Below are positions 35,520 through 64,000 of a stretch of DNA of 64,000 nucleotides, piece by piece. The notes beneath the pieces were generated by a model. That model was not told where the DNA came from. It saw nothing but the letters and a program-made list of their open reading frames with translations, and ran no database searches. The stretch lies in assembly GCA_037043015.1 (NCBI GenBank), contig CM073325.1, forward strand, positions 3,288,501-3,352,500. The letters run 5' to 3'. The DNA is from Bryum argenteum. Its lineage: Eukaryota > Streptophyta > Bryopsida > Bryales > Bryaceae. Numbering within the stretch: the first letter of the stretch is position 1; every line of letters begins with the position of its first letter. The position numbers and the translations under genes were made by a program.

Positions 35520-35527
35520 ATCTAAAG

Positions 35528-37813: not shown

Positions 37814-38224
37814 CTAACATCCCTGGATTTTCCATGCTGAAAATTGCGCCATTGTTGGCCACCTTCCTATATATGGCCAATGCACTCGGCTCGACTACTC
37901 TCGAATGCGTCATCAACAGGGAGCATGCGGATTTTGGAGTTGAAATCATCAAACAATATTAACGATTCCAATGGTTCAGAATATCTACGCATCGCTTACG
38001 TTGGTTTGAATGAGTAAGCCAGACAGTGATGAAAGTCTAACCACGAGTACGACTACTGTCCGCAAAAGTTGATATCTGCCATATATGGACTTGTACCGAG
38101 CGAATACAAAAACAGATTCAACCTCGACACACATCAAAATACAAGCTCCGTACAACGCCCTTTGCAAGTTACCACTGGTAGCTACAATTCACTTTATTTG
38201 CTTGCTTGTACCGAATTCGTGACC

Positions 38225-38872: not shown

Positions 38873-40417
38873 ACGTTCAGCTTCAAATCTTGCTAAGGTG
38901 GATGCCACGCAGATGCATGGCTTGCGAGAGCTTCGTATTCTCTACATACTAGAATAAGTTCGGCCGTTAATATCGACATTTTGTAGCTAGCTAGCACTGG
39001 CATCTTTTGTTGCTGTTGACAGAACCTAGACTCTGCAACTGGAGTTCGTATTTGATTCTATTTGACGATGTTTTGGGTTACTTGCGTGTAATGCGATGAG
39101 GTATGAGTAGCCTCGTCCTTACGAAACTTACAACGAGTGTCTATCTCGTACATGTGATTGCAACTGCAGGTGAAGGAAATGACTCAGCTGCAGTTTCATT
39201 AGCCGTTTAATTGATGATAAATTCGGTGTGAATTTGAAACTAAGCTTCGTGAGACAACGTTTCCACAATACACTTCATGTCGAGTTCCCTCAAATGCATG
39301 TTCTTGGTGAACCCTAACCTCAGCTGGATTCTCAATTTTCTGAAGCTGATTCAAGGCAATAGAACTTAGGAATCGAGACTCCATTAGTACAAAATAGTTG
39401 TAGATATACACTTGTCAGATTGTGCATATGTGACATCACATCACTTTGGACGACTGCCGGATGCCATGTCGGTTTGCAACCAACAGCTTACGCACAAAGC
39501 TCGTATTGAGATAGCAGAACCGCCATTTTTCAAACTTCACCATGTTACTCATTTTGTCTGGAGAATTGTCTTGGAGAATCTTATGTTCAATAATGAAACT
39601 GCTTACAAGTTGATAACGCTTGGTTGGTTCAATAATTTTTCTAGGAAGACACAGTAGAGTGTTTGGAGATCAAGAAAGCTAGACGAAGTCAAGAAACCTG
39701 CCATCATCATGAAATTACAATCGATAGATAGTACCTCTGAAGCATCGAAGGTGTATACAAGATTGTAACAATCAGGAAGCTGAAGAAGTCTGAAAGATGA
39801 AGCATCTTCCTGAAAGCATATACGTAACTGACATAGCATCAATCAACAGTTTCCTGGTCTACGGCTCGATACGTGTGAGCGAGACAATAAACGGAAGCCA
39901 GGGCCTCAAAAGTATGAAGTCCTCCGAGTGGATGTTGAGAATCATCGATATCTAGCTTACTTGACAATAATAAGTGCACGTCTACGTTACTGAACATGAA
40001 ATCTAGCCAGAGTGAGTCATCGCTGTGGTGCTGTAGTCATGAGGGCTTGGCCAAGCGGTTCCTACCACCAGGTGATTAATCGTATTGGTATAATTCTGGA
40101 CAAATGTGTTTCTCTCTTAGATTCATGAAAATCATGTATAGTTTTCTCAAGCCAAACTGGTTGACATGATTTACGTAGCCAATGCATTGGGTTCAACTAC
40201 ACTTGATTAACTTATGATGAATTTGAATGTGTTCTTGATATGTTTTATGCAGAAAATTGATATTGATCAACTCAAAGAAAACTATCATTTTCAAGGGTGC
40301 ACGCATTGCTTTTGTTGAAGGGAAAGAGTAAGCCAGTCATGAAAGTCTAGACACGAGGAGTACGACTATTGTCCGCAATGGTTGATTTCTGCCATAGTTG
40401 GACTTCCACCGAGCGCA

Positions 40418-40425
40418 TATATAAA
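40418..40425 (+). promoter_or_regulatory. TATA box of germin-like copy 3
   Basis: TATATAAA, 93 bases before the ATG, inside a stretch homologous to the upstream region of copy 2, where the box is altered. Context and distance fit a plant TATA box. Confidence 0.65.
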
Positions 40426-40517
40426 CAGATGCAACCTCAGCAGAACCACAAACTACAAGCTTCACTCAGCGCCCTTCGCTACAATTGCCTTCACTTGCTT
40501 GTACCGATTCTGTGATC

Positions 40518-41172
40518 ATGTACCGATCAATGTGGGCGACCGTGGCTGTGCTGGTGGCTGTGGCCGGAATGGTCATGGCGGCCGACGAGGACCCCCTGCA
40601 GGACGTGTGCGTGGCGAACATGAAAGCTGGAGTCACAATCAATGGCTTTCCCTGCAAACCGTTTGCGGAGACTTCAGTCAAGGACTTCGTGTTCCCAGGC
40701 TTGAAGAACCCCGGCACCACCGACAACCCCGACAAGGTCAACGTCACGGCCGCGTCCGTCCTCCAGTTCCCGGGGCTCAACACGCTCGGCATCTCCGCAG
40801 CGCGCATCGACTTTGCCAAGGGCGGCATCAACCCCCCCCCACATTCACCCCCGCGCCACGGAGCTGCTCATCCTGTTGCACGGCGAGCTGTACGTGGGAT
40901 TCATTAGCAGTGTTGAGAACACCCTGTTCGCCACCACCATCTACGCCGGCGAGGCGTTCGTGTTCCCCAAGGGCCTCATCCACTTCCAGCTCAATGTGGG
41001 CAAAGATGCGGCGTTGGCGGTCGCAGGACTGAGCAGCCAGAACCCCGGCGTGCAGCAGGTGGCCCCGGCGTTGTTCATGCCTGACATCAAGGACGAGGTG
41101 CTGGAGAAGGGCTTCCGCATCGACACCAAGACTGTCGACTTCATCCAGAGCCAGTTCCGCAAGAAGATGTAG
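40518..41172 (+). pseudogene. Germin-like gene 3, frameshifted in a C9 run
   Basis: Third germin-like copy. From ATG 40518 the frame runs MYRSMWATVAVL to KGGINPP and then leaves the family sequence. At 40832-40840 there is a run of nine C where copies 1 and 2 have CCCTCCCC, an excess of one base. After it, the +1 frame continues normally (HIHPRATELLILLHGELYVG to IQSQFRKKM, stop 41170-41172). All cupin ligands are therefore split from the signal peptide. The rest is undamaged and the promoter has a good TATA box, so the change is recent or a homopolymer sequencing error. About 25 residues differ from copies 1 and 2. Confidence 0.85.
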
Positions 41173-44127: not shown

Positions 44128-44131
44128 TTAA

Positions 44132-45020
44132 CCCTTTAACGTCTCAAATGGTTGCAAGAGGCCACTTTCTGGGCCGTGAGATGAAATTGATAAGGAAATA
44201 GAGCAATCTACAAATGTGCAATCGGGGTAAAATCAAGCAAATGGGAGCCAAAAATTCATGGAAAAATTCCGTGACATACGTATGTGAACACAAAGAGTAT
44301 GAAGAAATATGGAAGGAAATTGTGGCGAACATTATTTAATTGTTATGGGGTTGCTTGGATTTTGCTAAAGAATAAAGATGATGCTCCTGGTGTAAACGTG
44401 TCAAGCAGATCCTCCATGTATAATTCTGTTAAAAGGCCTACTCCCTCAACTAGGAATACGATTTGGTAGAACATGGAATCTCCAAGCATCCTCAAAGCGT
44501 GATGTTTTACAACAATATGTATTACTCTATTCTGCCTTGTTACCTATCAAACCACGTTGATGTTCCATTGAAGTGCGAGATAAGACTTGACACTTAGTTG
44601 AACAACAATATGTTTCTGTATGCAATTATTTATCTCCTTTGCTTTGTGTAAATCTGAGGTTGCATTTATGCATGAAATTGAGAAACTATTGTTGTAAACG
44701 TGTTCACCTCATGGACCTTCACGACACTGATTAGCTTTTGCTTACCTCAAAGTATCCAAGAATTTCACCTAATTACCTTTTAGATAACTATATCTCTATC
44801 AACACGGTCCTATGCACTCTGATACAAGCAATAAAATCTCAATCTACCGTGGTTGCCTGACCGACACAAATTTTACACGTTTCTTTATTGCTTGCCTTTG
44901 GATGTGCACGGTTAGATTTGCTAAATCTTGCCAAAATTACCAATTTCATTCAGCCCATCATGAGAAACCTCTCCGATGAGAAACCTCTCCGGAGAGGAGG
45001 ACCACTAGGACGTTGAAGGG
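44132..45020. mobile_element. TTAA-flanked element F (CCCTTTAACGTC ends), 889 bp
   Basis: Ends read CCCTTTAACGTC (left) and CCCTTCAACGTC (right, inward) with TTAA outside at 44128-44131 and 45021-45024. The right TTAA is shared with the next element. Related in its ends to the CCCTTAAACGCC family. No transposase frame was recognised. A CTCTCCGGAGAG palindrome and two copies of GATGAGAAACCTCTCCG-like sequence lie near the right end. Confidence 0.6.
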
Positions 45021-45024
45021 TTAA

Positions 45025-46717
45025 CCCCTAAAGTCAATTGAGGCCATATCCTTGTCCATTAGGGTTTGGTCAGTCTCTTACTTTTTAAATTTAGTTTGTA
45101 TGAAGTTGAAACCTTTTGCAATTTGGAAAGTTTTCTATATACCTTTGTAAATAGTCCTTTCGAGCTTCATGATCACCGTTTGAAAACAATATTCAAAATG
45201 TGCCCAATACTACCCAAACTACCATGTTTGCTCCCTAACTCTCAAAATTTGCGCAGAATTCTTTAATTCATAGAAACTTCAAAATTTCACCAAAAATTGA
45301 AACTTTACATTTTTTTCAAATTTTATTTTGTATACATGTAAATACAGATTTGAGGCATGATCTCACCGTTCATATCTCCATTCCAGTTATTCTTCACATG
45401 CTATTTTCATCATCAAAGCCCTGCCTTTGTATTTAAAATTCACCATACCTCCATGTGAATAATCAAGCATTTCTTTAGACTTTATGAGGAGTATGAGGGT
45501 AATAATTGCATAGACATGTTCCTAACTCACCTAAGAATAAGATTATGAAGAGCCTCATGTCAAAGTTTCTACCCAAAATGGATTTTTTGGCCCTTAAATA
45601 ACTAGTTACCCTTTCTACAACAAGGGAAAAAAAGCTTTTTCTCCAAATGAACTTTGAATATTATAAACTCACAGTTGGTAAGGTATTTGAATATGAGATT
45701 CGACCTACATATACACATACAAGTTAGGTACTAGATCCTACAGTTACAAATGCAAAACTACGTGAAAATTTGAAAAATTTCACCCAACATAAAAAGAAAG
45801 TAGTATTGAGACATTTTGGCAGTTTTGGGGCTAGTCAAACAAACTTACATTCAACCGCTTTATGCTCCAATGGTTGTCCTCACACCACCATCCATTCTTT
45901 AACCCCTAAGTGCCCACTCGACCATTTTCTCGTCCATGCCAAATTTTGAGGGCTTTGGGGACCAAAATTAGCACTTAAATTTTTTTTCTCAGAAGTTAAT
46001 GAGTAGAGGATCATGACCAATTTACATAACCTCATTTGGACTTGTGGTACCTTATCGTTCTCACTAACCACAGGTACAAGGAATGAGAATCCTATCAAGC
46101 AATTAATATACCAGCATGGGTCATAATGTCCACAATCCCTGCAGAGATTACAAGGTGCTTCCATCGGAAATTTGTGCAGTGCAATACCTGCCTGGGTTGA
46201 TCATGAGATCGATCGATCGTAAGCTTCAGAAACTCTCTTACTATGAGATAGTATGAGAATGAAACCTTCCGAACTCTGCCCTCCTACTTGCCTGGGTAGC
46301 AACTGAGAGCTGGACGACACAGCAAGCTGACAACGTCGAATGATGCCATTTATGCAATCGCCGGCAACGATGATGATCGAATATGAGTTCATATAACCGA
46401 AGAATATGATCGAATATGATCGAATATGAATATTTGAAGTTTCCGCAATTTAATTGATTCAGTGGAAATTTTGAAAATTAATGAGCATATACACGGCAGT
46501 ATTGGGCACATTTTGAATAGTGTTTTCAAGCGTTGGACATGAATATCTGACTCCTAAAGTATGAGGATTTTTGAAGCGTGAAATGACTTTTCGAAAAAGT
46601 GCATCAAATCTCTACAACTAGAAAAAGAAGTTTCAACTTCATGTGGGCTAAAAATAGTAAGTCAAAGGCTGACCAAATCCCAAACGACCACAATATGACC
46701 TCACTCCACTTTAGGGG
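45025..46717. mobile_element. TTAA-flanked element E with long inverted repeats, 1693 bp
   Basis: Ends CCCCTAAAGTCAATTGAGG and, inward from the right, CCCCTAAAGTGGAGTGAGG, bounded by TTAA at 45021-45024 and 46718-46721. The inverted repeats continue for about 220 bp with gaps. For example, TTCAAAATGTGCCCAATACT occurs at about 45190-45209 and its complement at about 46497-46516. The interior has no recognisable coding region. Confidence 0.72.
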
Positions 46718-46721
46718 TTAA

Positions 46722-47811
46722 TTCTACTTCTTTCACCAATTGCAAAGACTAATGCGTAGTCTTCAAAGTGAGGTCACCAAAAAAAAGTGGCCTGGTGAAG
46801 AATGAACTTCATTTATCAACCATGAAGTTGGAGATAATTGGTCCAAGCATCTGACCTTCACAATATACATAATTTGAAGGTCAAACTGAAACGATTTCAA
46901 ACTACCATGTTCATCCCAGAGATCCATTGATCCCTTTAGCTCCTCGACACACAAGTATATTGTGTTTGAACGGTGAGATTGTAGAGGTGGATGACAGCCC
47001 TTCAATTAGCCGAGATTAGGCAATATGGTGACATAGTAAGAATGTAAGATTCTGATGGATACTCAACTTCAGCATCAGTAAGTTCGATTTGTGTTGTAAG
47101 TTGTAGTCTATATTGATAACTGTTAGATGAACATATTCCTTGTCTGCGTGCATGAACTGAGAATGAATGAGTAGTGATCGAGCTGCCACAAAATGCTCAT
47201 TCACGTACAAATCTCATCAGGAATGGCCAGTGCGACTTCGAAACCGTCACCTACTGCAAAAAGGAGGACAAAAGGAACATGAAGATGGCCAGGAGGACTT
47301 ACCTGCCTTAAACGTTGAATCTAGCACGTAAATATTGCTCGATCGAACGCTCACCAGGGTTTTCTCTATTTTGTTGTTTGGAGCACTAGCTGGTGATGTT
47401 TAAACGCATATTAACTATACATTGTTGACTAGGTTATAATGTACTGTACTAGGATAGAATCATAAGAATTTTTCTCATAAGAAAACGACCATTCTCGATC
47501 AGGACATCAGCTAGGTTGCGGAGGAAGTGATGGATATGTCCAGCATGTAAGCAGTCTCGATCACAGCGGTGCAGAGGCATCACTTACATTGCGGAGGTTC
47601 CATTCTACTTGAAGCCTGCGATCGAGATCGATCAGATCGATGATATTAATTGTTCATGCTAGCTAGTCTTTGTCGGTAGCAAATGGTTTACCCGAACTTA
47701 AAGCTTCCGGCCGATTCAATAGATCTAGAGAGTGTGTCAATTGTTTGCTTTCGGCTTGTGTACATGTAACTGTGATCCTCCCTGTTTTGTTAGCAAGTCG
47801 ATTGCAGTACT
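46722..47811. other. Spacer between TTAA elements
   Basis: AT-rich sequence with GATCGATC motifs (near 46208 to the left and 47635 here). No gene or element could be supported. Confidence 0.4.
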
Positions 47812-47815
47812 TTAA

Positions 47816-48172
47816 CCCTTAAACGCCTAGCTATACGGATTTGGGCAGTCCAGTATTGGATCACAGCATCTTTTGCACTTGGACATCATGAATAGTGCAC
47901 TTTTTGGACTTGGGCATCATGAATGATCCAATCATGAGCTTGCAACCTCCTACAAGTATTGTACAACTCCAACCTACCTACCACAATCCTTTCAAAGCAC
48001 AAAATCACTCATACAAATTGTGATTTGAATTCTAAAATTTCACTATTTGAATGCATCAGAAGAAGGCGACCAGTTTGACATCAAAATATAAGTGAAAAGT
48101 TGAGTACATTGAGAGCTACAGAGGAGATTCTGTTGGAATATGACCCCTTGGGTCACCTTCGGCGTTTAAGGG
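47816..48172. mobile_element. TTAA-flanked MITE A (CCCTTAAACGCC ends), 357 bp
   Basis: Perfect 12-bp inverted ends CCCTTAAACGCC/GGCGTTTAAGGG with TTAA on both sides (47812-47815 and 48173-48176). The interior matches MITEs B and C in the opposite orientation, sharing CATCATGAATAGTGCACTTT and the reverse of AGGATTGTGGTAGGTAGGTT. Confidence 0.85.
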
Positions 48173-48599
48173 TTAATGTTTCCCCAAGTTCCTCTAGAGA
48201 GCTTCTGCGATCATTTTCCGACAAGTATTGGCAGTTTGAGTTTTTTGTTTTATCGTGTGAACAGCCGTTACTGATGTGAGGGAATTTAACACATAGTCCT
48301 CTTTAGATAATCCCAGACATACGTGTTGGAGGTCTATATCTACATCAATAAATTGTTTTTAGACCTACCTATCAATAAAAGGTTTTCTTTGTGTAACACA
48401 TACCTTGGGTGGACTATCCACCACTCCGACTCCTTGAAACTCACCCATTTTCACATTTGATTCAATCAAAAACAATGATAAAAAGCACGTAGATATTTGT
48501 ACAACATTTGGTGATGTACAAGTACAACAATCAAATATGACCATTAATTTCAAAACACTTCATTCTAGAGTAGAAACAAAAGTATAGTGATTAGCTACA

Positions 48600-49045
48600 T
48601 GAAAATTTATCCATATCCAAAAAAGGAAGTTAAATTTAGACTTTTGAACTCCTAAAAAAAATTTGTTCATAACCAAATCATCATTCAAGTTTCAAAGTGA
48701 CCTAAGTCAAAAAGTTTGTCAATTTCACAAATAACAAGGGCAACCTACAAAATTTACAAAAAAAATCTCTACAACTTTTACTAGTTCCCAAATTAGTTCT
48801 TACAAAACTTGTCAAGATTCAAGATTTTGGAAAAAAATTAATTTTTTTGAAAACCAAAAATTTCTACTAGAATGCATGTTTTACTATGTTGTTGTTTTTG
48901 GAGCTTAATATAGAATATAATTTGCATGAAGGTCAAAAAATTTAAATGAGTCTCCAAAATTTTGCATGATAGTACCCAACTTGATTACCTACATGGAAAA
49001 AATTATACTGAAAATGTTTGGGGTAACAATTTTCAACTTGCCACC
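48600..49045. repeat. Truncated copy J of the CCCCTAAA family
   Basis: Bases 48650-49045 align by eye with 56830-57265 of element H (shared AGTTTCAAAGTG-like, GTCAAAAAGTTT, CAACTTGATTACCTACATG and ATGTTTGG-GTAACAAT). Neither terminus was found, so the copy is internal or decayed. Confidence 0.55.
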
Positions 49046-49307
49046 ACCTATTGTCCTACACTCAAGGAAACGTGAGGGAATTTATATACTTGGAGTGAGA
49101 AATAAGTGGGTTACTATTTCCCAAGGATAAGGAATAGGAAAAGACAAACTTTCCCTAACTTTGTGGTTTTTAAAACACTCACATGATTAGATACAAACTT
49201 TTAAAAGCATGAGCCTAGAGGCGGGCATCCTAAACATATATGCATGAGGTACATGGAGAGGAAGTTCGATCTCTATAAAGGCAAGAATCTTGGGTGCCCG
49301 CCACTAA

Positions 49308-49669
49308 CCCTTAAACGCCCAAGAGAGCCCGAGGGGCTCTTTTCCAACAGAATCTGCTCTGTAGCTCTCACTGTAATGAACTTTTCACTTATATTTTGAT
49401 GTCAAACTCGTCACCTCCTTGTAATGTACTCAAAAAGTGAAATTTTACAGTTTAAATCACAATTTGTATGAGTGATTTTGTGCTTTGAAAGGATTGTGGT
49501 AGGTAGGTTGGGGTTGTACATAACCTTGTAGGAGGTTGCAAGCTCATCATTGATTGGTTCACTCATGATGCCCAAGTTCAAAAAGTGCACTATTCATGAT
49601 GCCCAAGTCCAAAAGATGTTGTGATTCAATTTTGGGCTGCCCATTTCAGACCCCATGGGCGTTTAAGGG
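49308..49669. mobile_element. TTAA-flanked MITE B, 362 bp
   Basis: Ends CCCTTAAACGCCC and GGGCGTTTAAGGG. Flanks CTAA (49304-49307, one change from TTAA) and TTAA (49670-49673). Same length and orientation as MITE C at 60739, and clearly the same sequence. The right TTAA is at the same time the left TTAA of element G. Confidence 0.85.
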
Positions 49670-49673
49670 TTAA

Positions 49674-51564
49674 CCCCAAAAAGTCCTTGTGTTTTTGGGA
49701 GCTCCAAAACTCAAAACTGCATTCTTGTACCACCTAATTGGAGTTGCGGTATGGTCAAATAATCTATTGTTTCTCTGTACTTTCAATCATAGGGCCTTGA
49801 AGCTAGCTACTCTATGTATTGGTACGTAAAATTTAAACCGTTGGATCATCACCATGTGTGTGATCGTACGATTCAAAGTCAATACATAACTTTTTGGGGG
49901 TATTTAGAGAGATACTTTATGCAAAGAGGGACTTAACCCGTAAACGCCCGAGCCTATTTTTAGCAGAAAAGCACATTTCCTTAGAAATCGTCATAGATGA
50001 AAATCAAGAGAAGCTATTAAGATCTTAACCGTACAAACTTGTAATAGACTTATCGAAGATCATGTGGACCAAAATTTGAGTCATGAGGCCTTATAGATTG
50101 GGAGATCATAACATATCAATATCAAAAACAAACTGCAAAATTTCATCATTTTCACTTTGAGGTGGAAATGCTACCAATATACCTATTGCAATGAAAAAAT
50201 CACCAACTAGAAAGATGTTCACCTTCATCTTAATGAGTCCTTTACCCAACAAAAATTCATCAAAAAAATTTCTTGGCTCAAATAAAAGCCATGCAATGGT
50301 AAAAACTACTGAACATTTTACAAAGGAAAAATAGTCCAAAACTAGACCCTTTGCATTCAATTTCATGCCTTATCTTCAAAACATCTTCGATCTTGTTAAG
50401 GTTTCTACCACTTAGACTAGACTCTAATTGGAGGCTATCCCAAAAAATTAAGTTGAAATCCAACGGTGGTTGAGGGAGATATAGCTCCTCAAATATCATC
50501 CATTTTCTCACTTTTTTTGTTGACAAAACATCATTGCAAATCCAGTAGCAAAATCATTTGGATCAAAAAATTTCTCACTACAAAGTTGTTAAGAATCACC
50601 TTAAGATCATGACCATGAAAAAAAAATCATGAAAAACTATTTTTAATTTCACATAATTGGCTTGCAATGGTAATACATGCCCCATGCTTGGAATTCCAAA
50701 AACAAGAGCTGTATTCACTAAAGTGCATTCCATCAATTCATACTTTATTGTATGGGCTTGCAAATTTTACAGCACAAACTAGACTTGATTTGGAACCTAA
50801 ACCAAGTGATTTCATCCAAAACGGACCTCGGATGAAGAAGATATGGCTCTTCAAAGTTTCTGGATGTACATCCACAATGTCGTTTTTCGACATCGTGGGC
50901 GTTTAAGGGTTAATGATTGTTACCACAAATTTTTTGCTCAAATTTTTTTCTTTGTGGAGATTGGGTTGACTCTTCCCATGCAAAATTTAAGAGGCCAATT
51001 TGGCATTTAGAACCTTCATGCAATTCATTTCGGACATGAAGGTATGAAATAGATGATATAGAAAAACTTGAATAACGTCAATTTTATTTGGTTTAAGGAA
51101 AATCAAAACGGTGAGTAGGTGAATTATATGCTTTTGAGTTTTAAAAAAATAAAAAATAAAAAATAAAAAAATTTGAAATCTCAAACTTTCACAAATTTTT
51201 GAAGGAAAAATGAAAAATGATTAAAAACATTGAAGCTGGCTGCTGTAATTTTTGGAGGCTGCCCTCATTAATTTTTTGACATGATTGACCTCGGTCACAT
51301 GATGATCATGCTAAAATAAAGATTTTCCAAAAAAAATGTCAGTTCAAAGAAGTTTTTTTTTTTCTGCCCCAATTGGGCCTAACTTCAACAATTTGAGTTT
51401 TAAAATTTTACATTAGAATTTGAGTTTGTAAGTTTATGCACATAAACTTTGTAGTATAGGGAGCACCCATTTCAAATATTAGGCAGGAATATTACTTCTA
51501 ACCCCTTCATCTAAGCTGCGCAAAATTGCAAAAATCTATTTTGGGTTTTAAGAATCTTTAGGGG
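49674..51564. mobile_element. TTAA-flanked element G (CCCCTAAA family), split by element D
   Basis: Left end CCCCAAAAAGTCCTTGTG, right end inward CCCCTAAAGATTCTTAAAAC. TTAA at 49670-49673 and 51565-51568. Without the nested element it is about 914 bp, close to the 928 bp of H, with which it shares interior blocks such as GTGCTCCC-TA-ACT near the right end and TGATTGTTACC next to the insertion site. Confidence 0.75.
49937..50909. mobile_element. TTAA-flanked element D nested in G, 973 bp
   Basis: Ends CCCGTAAACGCCCGAG and, inward from the right, CCCTTAAACGCCCACG. TTAA at 49933-49936 and 50910-50913. Longer relative of MITEs A-C. The site in G is occupied, whereas the paralogues H and I run through the same point without an insert. 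Frames inside (50106-50366 and 50278-50526, minus) show no recognisable similarity. Confidence 0.82.
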
Positions 51565-51709
51565 TTAAGTGGGGCACCCTTCAATGAGTGCTACTAGTGT
51601 TTTTCGGAGCCCCATGAGCCAATGGGATATTTTCTTCAGAGTTCCTGGAATTTTTGATTTGGACCCGCCGACTACCATTTTTGATAATTTTGAATTCAAA
51701 GATGGGACC

Positions 51710-52230
51710 TAAAGGGTCGTTCGCACCTGGCGCTTGGCCCTCGGTCTTACGGAAGAAGTGACGCTAAAAGTAACCGGGCATTCACACTGGAGGTGGTTAT
51801 TATCCACCGAGCCAACGTGTACGCCTACATGGCATGCCTGTAAGACCGGTTGTAGGAGAGGCCAGTTGCGCTAATTTCGCCGCCACTAGGATAAATCAGG
51901 CGAGTAACTAGTTCATGAACTTTGCAAGCTCCTATCTACTGGAGCCCCGGGTGGCAAATTAGGAAACAAAGATGGTTGCTCTTATCCCTGTTAAGTCAGG
52001 GAACTACATCGCGACGTTTGAATGCAAGCGCGACGTTCTTAAACTCCAATATTCGGCAGGGGGACGTAGCTCACTTCGTAACGTCCATCGCGGGTACGCA
52101 CCACCTCACTCCATCTTGAGTTGACCTGCACTCGCTCTACATTTCCATATCAGTATTATGCATCTTCGGGATGTGTCAAACTTTGATTGTTGTATGCTGA
52201 AATTGTAGAGCACCGATGTACATATCAAGC
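51710..52230. other. GC-richer segment, possible left end of the Harbinger-type element
   Basis: Composition changes sharply at about 51712, where TAAAGGGTCGTTCGCACC occurs. It may be a terminus of the autonomous element whose genes follow, but no matching inverted end was found on the far side. Otherwise unassigned. Confidence 0.25.
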
Positions 52231-53012
52231 ATGGAGAACAGCGTTGATCCTCAACAATTTACCGCCCCCATTCGTCCTACTCCGCAGCTTCTTGACGGTA
52301 AGTACAATTTCATTTTGGCATTGTGCATTGTGCGAGTATTTATTCAAGACTGTAACACTAGTTTGGAGGAAACTAGCATCACCACAATCGCAACTTACAT
52401 GATAGCTCTCTTGTGAAGTGCGCATACCTCAAGAAAGTAGTAAAATTCTATCTCGGTGTTATAACATGTACATGCCACCTTTGGCATCTGTCTTTCTTAT
52501 TCTTTGTAGAATTATGTTTCTGAAAAACAATCAACGCTGTTTGTTTTTTGTCAAATATCTTATGTTGTGTCTTTTCACCGGGCCCACTATAGTGTACTTT
52601 CATTCTTCGAAATAGAGAACCCTTGAGAAATTTAACTTGCACACAGAAAACGCACACTGCGATGGTACAATGACGACGTTGTAGAGTATATAAAAATTGT
52701 GAACAATTGTACATGTTTTATTATTCAGGTTCTGTTCGGATGGCACATGTGGCTGCAAACCAACAAGTGAGTCGTAGCATGCCGACGACTGCCTCATCAC
52801 GGGCAAGCACTGTCCTATCTTTCGATTCGGGATTAACACGACCAAAGATTGACAAGCGCCAATGCAGCGATTCATCCCCTCTTGTTGAGTGCAATCAAGA
52901 GAAGAGGCGCAAAGACAGAGGTCCTAATGGATCCCACAGAAATTTTCTCACCATTCAAGCTAATCGGGACGTATTCTTGGAGGAGTTAGATACGATTGAC
53001 GGCGTGATTTGA
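52231..53012 (+). CDS. Two-exon gene of unknown function, possible transposon accessory gene
   Basis: Exons 52231-52297 and 52729-53012 join in frame over a GT-AG intron to 116 residues. The protein is polar and Ser/Thr-rich with a basic patch (QEKRRKDRGPNG) and no recognised domain. It lies between TTAA elements and Harbinger-type genes, so it may be an N-terminal part of that transposon's DNA-binding protein or an unrelated host gene. The splice model rests on GGTAAGT at 52297 and a pyrimidine-rich TTATTCAG at 52721-52728. Confidence 0.4.
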
Positions 53013-55020
53013 CACCGTAAACATCAAAATGGCTACGGGTTTACAACATGTCACGAGATCTCGACAAATGTTCACCTTGTTTCCGTAATAAAGTTCAGAT
53101 GGCAACCAAGTAGAACCAGGTTGATTCCGGACTATAAATGTATTGCGGATTTTCCTTAGTCGCATCTAGGAACGGACGCGATTCTTGGATATATGAGTGT
53201 GTGCGACACCAAATCCCTCCTAAGAAGGAAGTGGGCAAAAAAATCGGGCATGGGTGGGGAGAGTGACAACCCTTCCAAGAATTGGACAAAACTCAATGTG
53301 AGTGATTTTCTTAGCTTAAGATGGGGTTGGAATGGTAGAACAATCTGCCCACTCCACCAAGTTCAACACGCCTTACTTCTCTAGAATGACTATTAATCGG
53401 GTCGCACAATCCCAAATCGCCCCTACCCTTACCTGTGACACTTCACAATCAAAAATGGGTTATTTTGCGCCCATCGCACCCTTAAAACCCCTAAAACCAC
53501 ATCAATTCAAATACTCCAAAGATTCACTTAAGACTCAAAGAAAAGAAATTTCAACTTAAACCACTTCACAAGTCATTCCCATTACCTCCAATCCATAAAT
53601 ATCACTTAACAAAGATCCTAACCCCTGGATGTCACCCTACACCTATTTAAATTAGGGTTCTTTTCTAAAGAGACCGGGCGTGACTTAGCGTCGCGCTCAA
53701 AACCCTAAAAATTAGCCCAAGACTACGCAGAACTCTACTGACCAAGTGGAATGGGCGTAGCTCCCGCGCTAACCCTCACCGAATCACTTTACTTTAACTA
53801 AGAAACTACAAATACGAACTTCACCAATTCAATCAATACAACCACCAACACGCAACTTTCCACGATCACGCCAATCAACTCACATACCAAGAGAAACAAC
53901 CAAAACAATTCAACACACTCCAATACTTACAAAGAACCCATCTCATCACAATTCCAAGAAAGATACAACTAATTATTGCTGGCGAGAATACAATCACCAA
54001 TTTTTTAAATAAGGTTCTCTAACACTCAAACTAATCAATCCCACACAAAAAAAAAAAAGATCCAAGGATTTAGAGCCGAGAGAGGGCTCCCTCCGATTCC
54101 GGATGCTATCGCTCCCTGACCCCCTCGCCACAAAATGGCCGTCAGTTCTTGTTCTTGCTCCTCTTGGAAAGAACCTCTAGCTTGTTGGAAAGATGTCTTG
54201 ATGACGCACTTGAATCCAAAAGCACGTCTCCCAGTTCCTCCTAGATCTCGAGATATGGCTCTCCAAAGTCGGACCTTCTAACTGCCGCCGCAGTAGACCC
54301 ACCTCCACTTGATCGGCCACCACTCCTTTGTCCTTGCTCCACTGAAGTCGCACCTAGTCTTTTTAGAAAGACCACTTAAAGGCGCTCCCGAATCCAAAAG
54401 GGCGTCTCCCAGTTCCTCCTAGATCTCGAGATATGGCTCTCCAAAGTCAGATCTTCTAACTGCCCGTCGCAGCAGACCCACCTCCACTTGATCGGCCACC
54501 ACTCCTCCGTCCTTGATCCACTGAAGTCGCGCCCTAGTCTTTTTGGAAAGACCACTTAAAGGCGCTCCCGAATCCAAAAGGGCGTCTCCCGCCTTCCTCC
54601 TAGATCTCGAGATATGGCTCTCCGGTTCCAAAGAATAAATGTTCAAAAATCGGTCAATCACAAAAATTAGAGGTAGATCTTTTCTTTTTCCCTAAAACAC
54701 TCCTCAAGCTCACACACAAACTTGTTCTAAAACGGCCACAAGAACCAAGTTCCCAGGAGACCACCCACTTCCCAAGATTCACAACGGCTACACTCTCTCA
54801 AAAACTAGATCTAGATTCAAAAACACACACCACGCTTCAAAAACTCTCTCCTTCCCTCGCTGACTCCAGGAGGTTGAAGAAAAAGCTTCATCCAACCAAG
54901 GACGGACTTTCATCCGTCTTAGTGTACCAATTTCATCCACAGGGTTAAACCCTGCAGTGGTTGAAAGACCACTAGGGATGAAGAGGATAAGGGGCCAATT
55001 AAGAAAAACCTCCCACCTGT
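53013..55020. repeat. Unclassified repeat region with three units of about 179 bp
   Basis: AGATCTCGAGATATGGCTCT occurs at 54243, 54421 and 54602 (spacing 178 and 181). The surrounding AAAAGGGCGTCTCCC and CCACTTGATCGGCCACCACT recur with it, so about 54070-54630 is a three-unit tandem array. Base composition of 53250-55020 (runs of ACC, CAA) differs from its neighbours, like retroelement non-coding sequence, but no domain or clear LTR was seen. Confidence 0.6.
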
Positions 55021-55156
55021 GAGCTGGTCACAAGAAATAACAAGCAATGCTAAACGCCTTAACTAACTCATAAAAATAGACAATTAAGTCGAAAACCTCA
55101 TGGAAATGCATTCCCGCTAGAGCCAACTGTTTCATGGGCTTCACAATGAAATTGCA

Positions 55157-56272
55157 GGCCAACAAAAAAGCGGAAGGCTTACCAAGACTCTTCAGTAGAG
55201 ATGTTTTTGATGTTGACCATGACTGGTACAGGAACCGTCTCCAAATACAGCCACCTCGCGTTAGAGATCTCCTCTCACCAAACGATGCTAACTTCAGACC
55301 ACTACAACATGGCATGCATGACTATGTGGACAAGTTACAGAGCAAACCAGAAGCCGAGGACCTTATGGAGATGCCGCACCCCGAAGGTATCGAGACAACC
55401 AAGGAGTCGTGGCCACAGCAAACTACCCGAAGTCCCCTATCAACGCCCGTTCGTCCGAATGATTCGTCACCACCGCAAACTCCCCAAAGTCGCATCTCAA
55501 CGCCCTTTTGCCCCACACCCACGCAGAGTCCGCACCAAGCCCACAGTTACGAGGTTTCAACGACTTGCTCTCTGGAATTCACCCGCATGTCATCAGTTCA
55601 TCTGACACATCTCAAAATGTTGTCCATAAGCGTCCAGGCAACACAACAGTGAGGAGAAAGAATATCTTGGGGCATAGCGTGATTACGACAAAGGCAACCG
55701 GTGCAGTGATGGTTGCCTAGATGCAACAAATTGCGGATGCAAGTCGTGAGTCGCGGTCAAAAATCGAGGTCCAGCTAAAGCTTTTCACGGAACAAATGGA
55801 ATACCAAAAGGAGAAGAATAGACGCATGCACGTCAATGCTGCCATAGTAAACGAAAACCCTCGACTAGCCATCATGAAGCAAGGTGAGATGGTTTCTTGT
55901 TTGGCACAACTCTCATCTGTATTGAGTACAGACTTGAGTATGTCAAGCAGAACATTACACTCCCACATGGGAGCACCTGGCCAACAGAGATTTCCTCGGC
56001 CCTCTGATCAACAACACTTATTTCGACAAAGAGACCCGGTCGGCCTCAACAACACTACCACCCTACCGACCTCTACTTCCTTCCCCACATCAGCTGGGAC
56101 ACCACAGGTGGACCAGAGCATGGTTCCGGTGGGAGCACATTGTACTGTGCCATCTCCGACGCACATGCTCTGCCTTTCACTGCGGACAGAGAAAAAAATT
56201 GTGGAACTACCGAGGAGACTCATGGTACACCGAGCACTCCCGCTTCTAGACAGGTCATCGATCTCTACCTGA
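55157..56272 (+). pseudogene. Probable Harbinger accessory (Myb/SANT-like) gene remnant
   Basis: Two plus-strand frames, 55157-55652 (after a possible intron end TTGCAG) and 55721-56272. The first has GLPRLFSRDVFDVDHDWYRN followed by a Pro/Ser/Thr-rich linker. The second starts ADASRESRSKIEVQLKLFTE, a basic-acidic helix reminiscent of the C-terminal part of the Myb/SANT-like proteins carried by plant Harbinger elements. The two are in different frames, so it is spliced or broken. The DNA-binding domain itself is not visible. Lies convergent to the transposase remnant at 58 kb. Confidence 0.45.
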
Positions 56273-56602
56273 TCCAACATCTCAACGTTGACTTACACTT
56301 TTAACTCATTAGCTTATGTAGATGCCAGTCATGCCACCCATGATGGCGATCGCCTTTACTGCATCCACTCTTATAGGTCACAGACACCTGCACAACAAAA
56401 AAGATCAATTAGATGTATTACATATGATTGATATATCAGTATGGTTGAAATTTAAATGCAGTACTTCGTCTGTTTCAACATCGGTTTCTGAATAAAGGAG
56501 GACTTGTAAATTGTATTGTACCGTGCTCATTTATTTATTATTTTGATAGATAGTTCCCTTCTATGCAGTCATGAACATACTATTTAGTCCGAAGTTTTTT
56601 AA

Positions 56603-57530
56603 ACCCTAAAAATCCAAGAAAACCAATTCGATATTTTGAGATTTCGGGCAGCTCCTTTTAAGCAATTAAATTGATATTTTTGCCTAAGATTTTTATTGAG
56701 TGCTCCCCATACTGTAATGTGTATGCGGTAAAATTTGCAAAGCCAAGTTTTAATTTTATAACCTTCATCTAGAAATTTTCGATTTCAAGTCCAAAACCGG
56801 CAGTTTAAAACAAAAAAAAATTTAGAGTTTTTTTTTTTTTGGAAATATGTTCATTACCAAATTACTATTCAAATTTCAAAGTGTCCAAAGTCAAAAAGTT
56901 TACCAATTTTACACGGGCAGCCTCTAAAACTTTCAAAAACAATCTTCACAATTCTAGTAATTTTACAATTTTTTCTTTCAAAAATTGCCAAAATTTGAGA
57001 TTTGGATTTTTTCCAAGATTTGTTTTTTTCAAAATTCACATTCTCATAAATGCACCTAATCAATGTCCAAATTTTTCTCAAACTAAATATATCATATGTC
57101 GTGCTTGTTTTAATATATTGTTGTTTTTAGACCTTCTTTCATAAAATAATTTACATTAAGGTCAAAAAGTGGAATTGGGCTCTAAAATTTTGCATGAGCG
57201 TACACAACTTGATTACCTACATGAGAAAAAATGACGGAAAAATGTTTGGAGTAACAATCATCAAGTTGCCCTTGGCACCATTTAGACAATGCCTCTCACG
57301 CAGCGGCAAAAAAGTGTTGGACAAACTTTGATTGTTATGATCTCACAAATGACAAACATCCAACGGTTGAAATTTTGACCAATTCTTTGTATACAAGTTA
57401 GGTACAAGATCTTATGGTTTAAATTCAAAAAGCAGAAAAAAAAGTTTCTCCATTTTCCCATTTCTCAGCAAAAGTGAAAAATGGCAGTTTTTGGTTCTGG
57501 AGGTCGAGGAAACGCTTGGATTTTTAGGGG
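56603..57530. mobile_element. TTAA-flanked element H (CCCCTAAA family), 928 bp
   Basis: Left end ACCCTAAAAATCCAAG, right end inward CCCCTAAAAATCCAAG. TTAA at 56599-56602 and 57531-57534. Inverted repeats are about 16 bp. The interior is shared with G, I and J (for example TTTCAACCGTTGGATGTTTG read from the right end, also in I). Sits between the candidate Harbinger accessory gene and the transposase. Confidence 0.78.
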
Positions 57531-57534
57531 TTAA

Positions 57535-57989
57535 TGAGAAGAGACATCACAAAAGAGAGCACACCATATTAAAGATCATCCTATATCATTTCATAATAAT
57601 GTAAACGAAGAGACAAAAGTATTGGGAGAGGTCAAAAAGATCTGATGACAAAAACCGTAACTATGGTACAGATTCAGAAACAAACAAGCATTGACCAATA
57701 ACGTGGTTATGAATAAGGCTCTTCACAGATGCCAAAGGTGGCGTGTACATCAATCCTGCTCCCACCGAGATACAACTTAAATACTACTTTCTTGGAGTAT
57801 GCACATTTCAGAAGAAACCATCAATATAAGAGGGTTATCAAGCAGTGAGATTCTAGTTTTTATCTATGACGGGAATCAATAATCATGAGAGAATTACTTA
57901 CATTGAAGTTAACAGCACACCATATGAAAGATCATCTTGTATCAATTCATAGAAATGTAAACAAAGAGACCAACAGCACATAGGGAATT
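57535..57989. repeat. Spacer with a duplicated 55-bp block
   Basis: The block GCACACCATAT(T/G)AAAGATC... through AATGTAAAC(G/A)AAGAGAC appears at about 57560-57615 and again at about 57911-57970. The second copy abuts the transposase remnant, so the duplication may be part of its 3' region. Confidence 0.6.
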
Positions 57990-58830
57990 ACTTACATTGA
58001 AGTTAGCGTTGCACACGCCGTTGCAATGCTTCAGATATAGAGAGTTGCCCTTGTGTCCTATGGGATACCATTAACCAAGGTAGCAACGGGTAACCTAAAT
58101 TCCCTATAATGTAAGGAGAAAAATCGTGAACACTATGGTGGGCACGCATCAAATTGTTTTGCATAGCCAATGTGTATAGGGAGGAGCGGCGTAGCATCCT
58201 TGAGTTGTTAATAGATCCAGGCATACCAACATACAGATCAAGGAAAGGCTTCTCACTGTCCACGACGACAGCTTGACAATTGACAGTGTACCCACCGCTT
58301 TTGAAGTAAAAATAATCGGCAAGATCAATGTTCGGCTGGATATGCTAACAGACGTACCGTCAATGGCTCCCACGACACCGGGCAGTCCACATAGATCCTC
58401 GAACTTGGCCTGAGTATCTCGCATTCTATCTTCCGTTGGCAACGAGATCTGGTCTCTGAAGCTATCGTTAATTGCATGCACTACTTCCCTTAACACCATC
58501 GACACCGTACTCCTACTGAGAGCGAACATTTCACTACAAACAGTTAAATTCGCCCCATGCGACAATTTGAACAGAGTATAGGCCACTTGTATTAGAACTA
58601 ATATTGCAAGCCTATACCTAGTGTTCTCTCTTTCAACATGTGGCCTCAATACATCTGCTAGGCTATGACAGCAAGCTTCGTATTTCTAAATATTTGGACC
58701 CATCGGCTATTGTCATATTGTTCTAACATAAATTTGCTGAACCACGTAGTAGACCTAAGTTTAACCCAATACCCGACATCGTCATCTAAGAAATTATACG
58801 ACAAACATAACTTGAATGGTGGAGGGTGGC
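57990..58830 (-). pseudogene. PIF/Harbinger DDE transposase remnant
   Basis: Minus-strand remains of a Harbinger (DDE_Tnp_4) transposase. Family-typical segments in order: WFSKFMLEQYDNSRWVQIFR (near 58700), RPHVERENTRYRLAI, CSEMFALSRSTVSMVLREVV, GVVGAIDGT (first catalytic Asp), then ADYFYFKSGGYTVNCQAVV, FLDLYVGMPGSINNSRMLRR and LGYPLLPWLMVSH. The frame changes near 58330 and again near 58650, where there are stops. Where relatives have (N/H)D(S/A)R, carrying a catalytic Asp, this copy has NNSR. The C-terminal Glu region is absent. So it is non-functional. Plain DNA transposon. Confidence 0.85.
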
Positions 58831-60735
58831 ACGCATCTAGTTTTCAGTAAAGCGGTCCTGCAGATTCTCAACTATGGAAACCACCGAATCTGATGCGATC
58901 AGGCGGGGAAGAGCCTCGACATCTTTGTTGTTGAAAAGCAATAGCAGTAGTAACACACTAAATACAATGGCTTCAGTCGGGTCACCCAACCGGTCCATTG
59001 CAGCAATTGATATGCAGCGGTCACGAAGGCTCCGCTACATCTAGTTTATGATCACAGCAGTGTATACGTTAGCTTACTTCTCGACAACATAGTAATAGTC
59101 TAAAGGTCCTCTATGTACGCAACTATCATCTCCTAATCGTTGCTGCAAAGTCGTGCACATGCATCCCCAACAAAGCAAGTATTCTTTTGAAAAACAATGA
59201 AGTGAACAGATAAAGGGAAACTATCTCTTGGCAACCGTAAACCCATGAACTACACCAGAACCCAAGAAAGGCGTATCACAAGAAAAGACTACTTTTGTAA
59301 AGAGATGCGTTGAGAACCTAAATGGAAGAAAGTCCAACTCTAGAAATACAGTAAAGATAACCCTCACACAAGCATTGCAAAGGGAATTCTTCCATTCCTA
59401 CATGTAGATGCATCTAAACTCGTGTTCTCATTCATAACTTTAAGTTCTCGCAAGTGACAAAATCATATATTTGACTAAAAGAAGAACATGAACATCTTGA
59501 CTTTCAAATAATGATGGCAACGAAAGGACGTCCACAGGAAAATCTTGTAACATCCTTCGGCGCAACTCTTGAAACAGCAAGCAAATTTGTATAAATTAAA
59601 TTAGAATACTCAACAATTGTGTAAGAAAGTACGTATAGAAATCGCATCTGTGCCGATACTTTCGGGTATAATTCCAGTGAAACACATGATACTCAGAAAT
59701 TATACTTGAACAACCGAAACTCCAAATGATGTGCGTGAGGGGTACTTACTGAGATTACGAACTCCAAATGAACGACTCCCGCGCTCGATAAGCATATAAA
59801 ACTTCGGATAATTCACCAGCCGCGACCCCGGATACTTCACCAGCTGCAGAGAGTGCTTTGGCAAGAACTAAACATAATAAAACCCTAGATTGCAGTCTCC
59901 TCGCGATTGCTCAAGGGACAACAAATGATGCGTACCCTCGCCTACCCAATTTCCGTCCAACAAATGAATAAACCAAAGCAAAATCTGCCAATTCTTCCGT
60001 TGAATGCACTTACAGGCAAAAATGCGGAACGAAGAAAAATAATGCATCTCAACCGCGACAACGAAAACAACGAGAGCGATCACCACGCACAAAGGGAAAA
60101 AAATGATCGAAGACACTGACTTGAGGCAACAGCCACTCCATAAACGGCGACACTACGTAACACCACTACGCACGTATGACGGGTTGGGAAAAAGTGGCCT
60201 AAGACCTTATCCAGTCACCAATCAGTAAAGTTAAGCATCGTATATGTGAACATACAATATGTATGTACATACCGAGAAATCCGCAACCCACCAGCGTGGA
60301 CCCACTCCATGTGAACCCATTTAAAGTAATAATTATAGTAGCGCTCTTACCCGAAACCAGGGACCCTTACACGAAGCCAGGTGTGAAGGGCCCATAAGGC
60401 CTCAAATTACTAAAGGAGATTCCTCGTGGCAATTTAAGCCTAAACATTAAATTTTTAGGGGGTTCTTTACCCCTCCCCTCCCTTGCCCCACAGAAGTAGG
60501 GGTAAGCATTCGTAGCAGCTACCAAGGAGGATGGAAGAGGGGTAATGAGCCCCCTATTTTTTTGATGTATAGACATTAAATGCCAAGGAATAGATTTCTC
60601 GGGGTAACTAGGGATCGCAGACCTCAAATTTGAATTCAAAATTATGAAAAATGACCTTGGGAGGTCGCCACGGATTCTAGGGTGCCTCCTTGGTAGCTGC
60701 CACGAACCATTGCCCCAGGAGTAGGTGCCCGTCTT
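58831..60735. other. Probable 5' part of the Harbinger element, spacer and an inverted repeat
   Basis: Upstream of the transposase on its strand. Frames at 59868-60119 (both strands) lack similarity. At its right end an imperfect inverted repeat pairs GTAGCAGCTACCAAGGAGG (60508-60526) with CCTCCTTGGTAGCTGCCACG (60687-60706), extending outward through GGGG-rich sequence, about 35 bp per arm. Confidence 0.4.
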
Positions 60736-60738
60736 TAA

Positions 60739-61100
60739 CCCTTAAACGCCCAAGCAAGCCCGAGGGACATGATTCCAACAGAATCTTCCCTGTAGCTCTC
60801 ACTGTACTCAACATTTCACTCATATTTTGATGTCAAACTGGTCACCATCTTCCGATGCATTCAAAAAGTGAAATTTCACAATTCAAATCACAATTTGTAT
60901 GAATGATTTTGTGCTTTGAAAGGATTGTGGTAGGTAGGTTGGGGTGGTACATAACCTTGTAGGAGGTTGCAAGCTAATCATTAATTGGCCTATTCATGAT
61001 GCCCAAGTTCAAAAAGTGCACTATTCATGATGCCCAAGTCCAAAAGATGTTGTGATCCAATTTTGGGCTACCCGTTTCAGACCCCATGGGCATTTAAGGG
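60739..61100. mobile_element. TTAA-flanked MITE C, 362 bp
   Basis: Ends CCCTTAAACGCCC and GGGCATTTAAGGG, TTAA at 60735-60738 and 61101-61104. Near-identical to MITE B over its whole length (shared TGGTAGGTAGGTTGGGG and CTATTCATGATGCCCAAGTC), so these two moved or were copied recently. Confidence 0.9.
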
Positions 61101-61267
61101 TTAAGTGGTTTCACCATAGCACCCTCAAAATTGCCCTAAAACCCCACAGGATAGCCAATCTTCCCATAGAAAGAACAGAAGTCGAAGGGTCGGCAGCAAG
61201 AACGAATGAAAGTCGGTAATCCCCCACTAAATCTCACTCATCCGACGAATACGAACACTTTCTCATT

Positions 61268-61405
61268 CAAGAACACGAACCCGATAAAATATCTTCTCGA
61301 TCGACATGGCCAGATCCTATCCGTCGATCCGCGATCCAACGGACACACATCTCAGCCAGGAACACGAGAATCGGATAAAATATCTTCTCGATCGACATGG
61401 CCAGC
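61268..61405. repeat. Two-unit tandem repeat, 91-bp period
   Basis: ATAAAATATCTTCTCGATCG occurs at 61284 and 61375, preceded both times by GAACACGA and followed by ACATGGCCAG. Unassigned. A short palindrome GGGGACAGTT...ACAGTCCCC follows at about 61480-61504. Confidence 0.75.
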
Positions 61406-61831
61406 TTTCACCCGTCGATTCAAGATCTTACGGTCCCAAAGATTCACACGAATGGGCAGCGGATGAGATCCCATGTATCTGGGGGACAGTTATTGTACAG
61501 TCCCCATGTACTTAAAAATTTAATATATACTGCGCATAATTTAGTATATACTGCCCAAAAAGACATTTTTTATGTATTTCCAATTTAAAATAATAAAAAG
61601 TGCACTCCCTTATGGACTCCCTTGATTGGGCTACTCTGGGGCGCTGACCAGCCAATGGGATGAGAGATAGGTACCGAATGAGTCTCTCAGCCTCAAGCTC
61701 AAAAAGTTACTGTACAGGGCAGCAATTTAGGGCAGTTCAACGAAAAGGGGCCACATTTTTTAGGGCAGTCCACAAACAAATCTTGAGTCGCCGTTTGAAT
61801 TTTCAGCCATTCGTTCTCTTGGCCAATGAGA

Positions 61832-61869
61832 GGAGGAGGTTGCCACTCAACCAATCGGCAACCTCCTCC
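61832..61869. repeat. Short perfect hairpin
   Basis: GGAGGAGGTTGCC (61832-61844) and GGCAACCTCCTCC (61857-61869) form a perfect 13-bp stem with a 12-base loop. It lies just left of a Stowaway-like MITE. No function can be assigned. Confidence 0.85.
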
Positions 61870-61889
61870 GTCCTTCTTTCTGAATAGTA

Positions 61890-61978
61890 CTCCCTCTGTC
61901 CCATTATAACTGTACAGGAGGTTCTTGAGAGGTGGATTTGAGAGAACCTATTGGACAATTACAATGGGACAGAGGGAG
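61890..61978. mobile_element. Stowaway-like MITE, 89 bp
   Basis: Ends CTCCCTCTGTCCCATTATAA and, inward from the right, CTCCCTCTGTCCCATTGTAA. TA on both sides (61888-61889, 61979-61980). A variant of the terminus seen at 29179. Confidence 0.9.
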
Positions 61979-62213
61979 TATTTATCACGTGAATAAAGAT
62001 GAGATTCTTTTCTTTTTGAGCATTACCATATGGGTTCGTTTTGTTTTGAATGTTCTTTTTGTTCTCTCATGTATGGATGTTATACGATTTGATCTTTCTA
62101 AGAGATAATATATTAAATTGTTGTTCAAGAATGCCTTGTCGAATATTTGCAAAGCCAGAATAATGTTGGTAATTTTCTTATAGTACAGAAATATCATAAA
62201 ATTGGTAAGTTAA

Positions 62214-63403
62214 CCCCTAAATTTCCTTGTTGTTTATGGAACCTTGAAACCTCAAAACTGCCATTTTCTAGCACTATGTACTCCTTGCGCTACGAGTCAG
62301 ATTTTTTTACTTTATTTTGACTTCTAACCGTAAGATCTTGTACAAAAACCTAATTGGAAAAACTAATCTAAATTTCAACCGTTGGATGTTTGGCATTTGT
62401 GAGATCATAACGTTCAAATTTACGACAAATGTTTTTTTGGGTATTGCCCGAGAGACAAAATGCAAAGGGCGAATTGTCCATGGTGCAAAGGGCGAATTGA
62501 TGATGATTACCTCAAACATTTTGGTCACATTTTTTTTCATGTAGGTTTATGAGTTCTTCATGCTCATGCAAAAATTTGGAAACAGATTCCACTTTTAGAA
62601 CCTTCACTAAAAATGTTTTCCAACTTAGGGTCTAAATTCTCTCATTAGAGTTGAAATATGAAAAAACTTGGTGGTATCTATAGAGTTTTGAATTTTGAAA
62701 AAGTGAACGGTGAGAGGGTGCACTCATAGAATTGTGAATTTTGGGCACAACTTTTATTCAAAAATTTTAAAATCTCAATTTCTTATGAATTGTTTAAGGT
62801 TTACAGTAAGAAAATTAGAAAAATAAGAAAGGGGCAGCCTTACAAAGTTGGACCCCTTATTAGCCCCACTACACCCTTTACATGCATTCATAAAAATATC
62901 AAAGTAGATCTTGTTGTTACAACTGCAATGGCCTAAATTGGTCAAAATTGACTTACATTTATGGCATGTGTAAGTAAAATTCAGTCGTGGATAGTCCTAT
63001 GCGGAATACATTGAAATTACATTGAGATTGGTGCTAATCGATGGAGCATTTAGCAAGGCAGGTGAGCAGCCCCCATTTGCAGATCATAAGTTAGCCATAA
63101 CCCCCTTCTAAACCCCCTGCCCATGTCATATTTCTTCTCTCAAACCGCACGACTGCCCTATTTCTGACAGCAACCCCCATTGGCTTAGAGCCCCGCCCGT
63201 CTTGCCCCTTCTCGACTCCAAAACGAAATAATGCCATAGAAGTCATGAAAATGAGAATTTTACACCAAGATTTTTACCACATCTTCATCATGGAAATGCC
63301 CACCTCCGGTAAAAAAATTAGCAAAAAATATCAATTTTTACTACTTCACTTACGTTGCCCAAAACAACTAAAACCCGTTTTGGTTTTTAAGGAAACTTAG
63401 GGG
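62214..63403. mobile_element. TTAA-flanked element I (CCCCTAAA family), 1190 bp
   Basis: Left end CCCCTAAATTTCCTTG, right end inward CCCCTAAGTTTCCTTA. Flanks TTAA (62210-62213) and TTGA (63404-63407). The left half follows element H (read from its right end) closely, including CAAAACTGCCATTTT and TTTCAACCGTTGGATGTTTG. No recognisable coding capacity. Confidence 0.75.
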
Positions 63404-63407
63404 TTGA

Positions 63408-64000
63408 GAATTTTTGTAAAATAGAGCTTCTAGCTTTCGTTTGAAAATATTTTATAGAAGATGAAAAGGTTAAGGAAGAGTGATTCATTTTTTCTTGATT
63501 TAAGCCCTGAACAACCGGAGTGTCGAAAAACAACATTTTGGATGAAGAGCAGAAATTCTGAAGAGGCATACTTCTTCATCTAGATTTCCTTACTGGTAAA
63601 ATCACTTAGATTGGGTAACAAATCAAGTCTAGTTTGTGAGGTACAAATTTTAAACCCAGAAAATAAAGTATGAATAAATGGCATGCACTTTAGTGGAGGC
63701 AGCTTTCACTTTTGGGTTTTTGAATAAAATGCATGTTTTACCATTCCAAGGCAATTATGTGAAATCAAAAAATATAATATAGTAAAAAAAATTAAAAATT
63801 GATTAGTTTAAGTAATTGTGATCTTTAAGTGCATCCAACAACGTTGTAGTAGGAAGATTTTTGATCAGGATAACTTTGGATTTGCAATGATGTTTCTAAA
63901 ATGAAAAAACGTGAAAAATATGAATGATATTTGAGGAGCTAGATCACTTTTATCCACCATTAGATTTTGACTTTACTTTTTTCGATATATTATAATTTAA
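63408..64000. other. AT-rich spacer at the window end
   Basis: One minus-strand frame (63387-63569) overlaps the end of element I and has no similarity. Nothing else recognised. Confidence 0.4.

Follow-up and report, generated by a model that had tools for sequence, protein, structure and literature searches.

Nine short transposon-like elements lie within the 64,000-nucleotide stretch of Bryum argenteum DNA analysed here (contig CM073325.1, positions 3,288,501 to 3,352,500; the whole stretch is termed the window), and all nine start and stop where an earlier reading, made from the letters only, had placed them (Table 1). CCC begins 17 of the 18 ends, the exception being the left end of element H, which reads ACCC, and TTAA stands directly outside 16 of the 18, with exceptions to the left of B and to the right of I (plus strand). 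As F and E, and likewise B and G, each have one TTAA in common, the 18 flanks represent 16 distinct sites, 14 of which are TTAA. With one mismatch allowed, the window holds 19 occurrences of the string TTAACCCYTAAA, whereas 100 dinucleotide shuffles gave 0.93 on average and never more than 3. The sequence-only reading had recognised a piggyBac-type signature in these ends, a view supported by the transposases described below, which match the Pfam family PF13843 and lie inside elements having the same ends. Its division of the elements into two families was too simple. Elements A, B and C belong to a single family of ∼360-bp miniature inverted-repeat transposable elements (MITEs), 85–90% identical to each other, for which a genome search with A returned 45 matches from the best 40 of 2566 candidates; G, H and I are diverged relatives within a second group; and D, E and F stand separately, having only short termini in common with the other window elements. 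The window elements are almost certainly non-autonomous DNA transposons of the piggyBac superfamily, comprising MITEs and deleted copies, in a genome that also carries full-length piggyBac elements with at least three lineages of transposase.

Table 1. Transposon-like elements of the window, in order of position (termini and flanks are given left / right)
Element	Position	Strand	Length (bp)	Termini	Flanks	Remarks
F	44132..45020	.	889	CCCTTTAACGTC / CCCTTCAACGTC	TTAA both sides	right TTAA (45021-45024) common with E
E	45025..46717	.	1693	CCCCTAAAGTC...	TTAA both sides	inverted arms imperfect (∼71%); TTAACCCCTAAGTGCCC end inside at 45899
MITE A	47816..48172	.	357	CCCTTAAACGCC	TTAA both sides	
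MITE B	49308..49669	.	362	CCCTTAAACGCC	CTAA / TTAA	right TTAA common with G
G	49674..51564	.	1891	CCCCAAAAAG / CCCCTAAAG	TTAA both sides	length includes D
D	49937..50909	.	973	CCCGTAAACGCC / CCCTTAAACGCC	TTAA both sides	inserted in G
H	56603..57530	.	928	ACCCTAAA / CCCCTAAA	TTAA both sides	related to G/I, in reverse orientation
MITE C	60739..61100	.	362	CCCTTAAACGCC / CCCTTAAATGCC	TTAA both sides	
I	62214..63403	.	1190	CCCCTAAA / CCCCTAAG	TTAA / TTGA	

Transposases of the piggyBac type are abundant in the genome (258.8 Mb in 25 contigs). A search with PF13843 gave 775 first-look candidates, the best 116 of which were scored and all passed (E = 7.4e-82 to 1.4e-69), while none of 14 control genomes was positive. 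Fifteen transposase loci were examined and both element ends were read for six (L026, L035, L036, L042, L043 and L044), all of which have CCC at both ends, with TTAA on both sides in five and TTAT on both sides in one. The L026 element (C1:23339978-23345168) is 5191 bp long, is flanked by TTAA on both sides and has perfect 12-base CCCTTAAACGCC termini, the same as those of MITEs A and B. It contains an 897-amino-acid stop-to-stop frame that matches PF13843 with E = 1.4e-82 and, among solved structures in PDB, the Trichoplusia ni piggyBac transposase 6x67 (E = 2e-29) and Myotis piggyBat 9c0f (E = 7.7e-24). A long relative with the ends of the window elements and a piggyBac transposase, which the sequence-only reading had proposed to look for, is therefore present. 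In the four transposase frames scanned, PF13843 (E = 1e-78 to 1e-82) was the one Pfam family to reach its cut-off. The other full elements measure 5461 bp (L036), 5750 bp (L035) and ∼5.7 kb (L042–L044), and the transposase frames of the plant elements are 831–910 amino acids long. Ten transposase fragments were aligned, and all ten keep the aspartates of the DE, D and VDxxDQ motifs (D172, D251, D364 and D367 in the numbering of the first sequence); we take them to be the catalytic residues from what is known of piggyBac and from the alignment to the PDB transposases. Nine of the ten have the first four C-terminal cysteines, and in L025 the motif is degraded further on. CCC-starting terminal inverted repeats, a PF13843 DDD transposase and a C-terminal cysteine-rich domain, each a mark of the piggyBac superfamily, are all found here. 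Within the 5191-bp transposon a 21-base unit is repeated 11.2 times in an array (L026:655-890), and a 134-amino-acid frame (L026/L037) lies upstream of the transposase, on its strand, and matches no Pfam family at E 0.1.

The target preference evident in the window extends across the genome. Exact copies of the 12-base end CCCTTAAACGCC number 4219 (2114 + 2105), compared with only 26 of the backward string, and TTAA lies directly outside 3775 of them (1887 + 1888; 89.5%), a frequency to be set against a chance expectation of 0.7% from window base composition, TTAA making up 0.5% of window 4-mers. Complete elements were recovered with a pattern requiring exact 12-base ends and a length of 344–369 bases, with four free flank bases and C barred at the fifth base out. 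It matched 409 elements, and among the 50 listed TTAA is present at 96 of 100 ends, counted by eye. The remaining four ends have CTAA (twice), GTAA and TTAG; three of these alter the outer T and one alters the last A, so that the outer T belongs to the site, and the earlier claim that the target is TTAA, not just TA, holds. For ends of the CCCCTAAGTGCCC type, under the same fifth-base condition, TTAA was found at 23 of 30, with one backward control match.

Since TTAA is palindromic, duplication of the target cannot be read from the flanks alone. Duplication of four bases is shown by a copy with TTAT on both sides, by single-TTAA empty sites and by the slot occupied by D in G. The copy, L043, is one of three near-identical elements and its TTAT...TTAT flanks are in direct orientation. 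L035 sits inside a copy of a 607-bp MITE, and the sequences on its two sides, joined without interruption at one TTAA, recur at all 40 scored places with 99–100% identity, a count that leaves aside two further partial matches at 72–80%; letter-by-letter reading confirmed an intact single-TTAA empty site in all 12 fetched copies of this MITE. In the window itself D interrupts G, and, the window's own two halves apart, all 38 scored G homologues continue across the junction (the best 40 of 1053 candidates being scored), with one four-base slot in each of the four empty junctions read. A duplicated 4-base TTAA target, as in the piggyBac superfamily, is therefore observed. D is itself a diverged relative of the 607-bp MITE.

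The transposases fall into distinct lineages, to some of which the window elements can be connected. CCCTTAAACGCC ends occur on L025, L026 and L034 and a CCCTTAAATGCT end on L029, where ends were seen (both were read for L026 only), and the cores of L025, L029 and L034 are 91–98% identical to that of L026. L035, L036 and L042–L044 have CCCCTAAG / CCCCTAAC / CCCCTAAA ends. Cores are 36–46% identical between lineages, which indicates at least three deep lineages (L026; L036; L032/L033); the L027 and L031 transposases are also distant. Window elements were compared with five full-length elements over 60 terminal bases, against 200 shuffled comparisons that kept the first 12 bases. The two ends of the L026 element find matches in both B and C, in the same left-right arrangement; the better end scores 24.5 in B and 30.0 in C, the other end 19.0 and 15.0, with shuffle maxima of 13.5 and 12.0, and the left 32 bp of C are 87.5% identical to the right end of the 5191-bp element. 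The right end of A scores 22.5 against the L026 right end, slightly above the shuffle maximum of 20.5. The alignments of G, H and I take in both ends of the L035/L036/L042-type elements and, near one end, 200–350 bases that lie outside the long frame; both ends of I align to the ends of L035/L036. G is a deleted relative of the L035/L036/L042 transposase lineage. D has only the 12-base terminus in common with the transposase elements, and E and F only TTAA and CCC; the end comparison with the five full-length elements found no partner transposase for D, E or F, whose piggyBac-type assignment we infer from TTAA and CCC alone.

The way in which these elements would move can be outlined from the known chemistry of the superfamily. 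The transposase would bind the CCC-ended termini and nick at the CCC end, TTAA hairpins would form as the element is excised, and insertion into a new TTAA would be followed by duplication of that TTAA. A, B and C are most likely mobilised in trans by transposases of the CCCTTAAACGCC (L026) lineage, and G, H and I derive from the CCCCTAAR (L035/L036/L042) lineage. A DDD motif, a C-terminal cysteine-rich domain and seamless excision through TTAA hairpins are described for piggyBac in passages of PMC7351741; hairpin formation, mobilisation in trans and seamless excision in the present elements would follow by analogy.

One group of elements has spread recently. L042, L043 and L044 lie on contigs C4, C8 and C9 with different flanks, are each ∼5.7 kb long and differ in only 14 of 5703 alignment columns (3 substitutions and 11 gap columns), near-identity on three contigs that shows recent movement. 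Their 831-amino-acid frames are open. The cysteine motif, read in L042, is in a different frame from the main open reading frame (ORF), and these transposases may as a result be spliced, or the elements moved in trans. The 607-bp MITE (L045–L056) has unlike ends, CCCCTAAATGG / CCCTTAAGCGGGCC, and TTAA on both sides in 12 of 12 fetched copies, which are 98.9–99.5% identical to one of them and look like the product of a very recent burst. A still-active, plant-resident piggyBac radiation, several lineages deep and with footprint-free excision, could have driven such very recent MITE bursts; from the sequence record we hold this tentatively, as somewhat less probable than its opposite.

Several observations weigh against the piggyBac interpretation or restrict its reach. 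The scored transposases, being the best of the candidates, are not a sample of them, and L042–L044 were picked because their PF13843 scores tied. Only one end was read for L025, L029, L032 and L034, and no TTAACCC end was detected in the unextended ∼1.5-kb flanks of L027, L028, L030, L031 and L033 (5 of 15 loci). TTAA is missing from 7 of the 30 CCCCTAAGTGCCC-type ends. The homologues with an empty D site have TTGA (three) or TTGG (one) at the slot, none TTAA, and the window's D copy has TCAA at the place of the L035 insertion. The left end of MITE A (11.5) does not exceed shuffled comparisons with the L026 element, and the D, E and F ends are no more similar to the five full-length elements than shuffled sequences are. 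The frame offset of the cysteine motif in L042 belongs here also.

Other superfamilies that share parts of the signature were weighed against piggyBac. Kolobok and Sola3 elements also target TTAA, and the target alone cannot separate the three superfamilies. The transposases encoded between these ends nevertheless match PF13843 and solved piggyBac structures and carry the C-terminal cysteine motif, and only PF13843 was above the cut-off in the four frames scanned with Pfam, no dedicated Kolobok or Sola3 profile having been run. Kolobok or Sola3 is strongly disfavoured for the L026- and L036-type ends and very improbable for the window elements as a whole. Even less credence is given to TA-target elements of the Tc1/mariner or Stowaway-like kind, with termini of TAACCC and a TTAA that arises by chance or forms part of a longer terminal repeat. 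A palindromic TTAA flank could indeed be terminal repeat and not duplication, but both flanks of L043 read TTAT in direct orientation, a pattern not produced by an inverted terminal repeat, empty sites have one TTAA where filled sites have two, and the full TTAA stands at 96 of the 100 listed ends.

PIF/Harbinger elements have a 3-base TTA/TAA (TWA) target, and two ORF fragments of a PIF/Harbinger-type transposase do occur in the window at 58006-58685 (minus strand), with a DDE_Tnp_4 match at E = 2.5e-9 and HTH_Tnp_4 below the cut-off (E = 0.0015). This transposase fragment lies between H and C, however, inside none of the nine elements, and a 3-base target would give asymmetric ends whereas a 4-base duplication is seen; the TTAT...TTAT flanks and single-TTAA empty sites do not conform to a 3-base TWA duplication. 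An origin of the nine elements as PIF/Harbinger transposons is accordingly as improbable as a TA-target origin, and membership of the piggyBac superfamily remains by far the best account of them.

The superfamily, piggyBac, is a known one; the points of note are the host, how many and how diverse its transposases are, and the indications that elements moved recently. PiggyBac is best known from insects and bats. One locus with a LEAFY C-terminal domain is found in the host genome (E = 2.6e-50), a domain whose distribution indicates a streptophyte plant.

The elements resemble T. ni piggyBac (IFP2; 6x67/6x68) in the duplicated TTAA target, the CCC termini, the PF13843-type domain with aspartates at matching positions and, as far as passages of PMC7351741 describe it, the C-terminal cysteine-rich domain, the alignment to 6x67 itself ending before the cysteine motif. 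They differ in length, 5.2–5.75 kb compared with 2472 bp for IFP2 (given in a passage of PMC10803768), and in a long N-terminal part of the frame outside the match. The match to piggyBat of Myotis lucifugus (9c0f) covers query 425-895 and extends through the C-terminal cysteine motif; piggyBat differs in its animal host, the plant N-terminal part is again outside the match and overall similarity is low. Coral MITEs (PMC2872659, a text in which 'piggyBac' occurs 57 times and 'TTAA' 13 times) are likewise short non-coding elements, in an animal host. Among land plants, the C-fern repeat table (PMC6890710) lists 1230 PiggyBac pieces, 0.00% of the assembly, the table passage giving no transposase, ends or target sites, and piggyBac-like elements are named in plants in passing in the relevant passages of PMC8086355 and PMC10813416. 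The caution of the sequence-only reading, to which piggyBac was not known to be established in land plants, needs amending in that plants have already been named as hosts, and stands in that no detailed account of a native family was found: passages retrieved from the open-licence full-text literature, a search that left subscription journals and Repbase outside, gave no description of a native plant piggyBac with its transposase, ends and target site. A mention for Niphotrichum japonicum proved to be the word 'piggybacking'.

An active radiation, if there is one, would give plants a native equivalent of the insect piggyBac tool now used in rice, and a native, recently mobile piggyBac, should it excise like the insect element, would be a possible source of footprint-free, plant-adapted tools. 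The findings also raise the origin of plant piggyBac, by vertical descent or by transfer, and the uneven distribution of its ends. Contig C1, at 44.1 Mb the largest whose length was read, has 82 of the 4219 CCCTTAAACGCC ends, a density of 1.9 per Mb compared with 19.3 in the other contigs; of the 116 scored transposases, 5 lie on it. Why it is about tenfold poorer in these ends is a question for which one guess is that C1 is a sex chromosome.

Other features of the window lie outside the nine elements. At 14676-14685, beyond the span covered by the sequence-only reading, GGGTTAACCC presents two outward-facing CCC ends on one common TTAA, where two further elements of the same kind may abut. 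The inner part of D is matched at 72%, in reverse orientation, at 63521-63987, and another D-related element probably runs off the window end there. Several ORFs for germin-like proteins, two of them nearly alike, lie at 32383-41032, as judged from translations read by eye.

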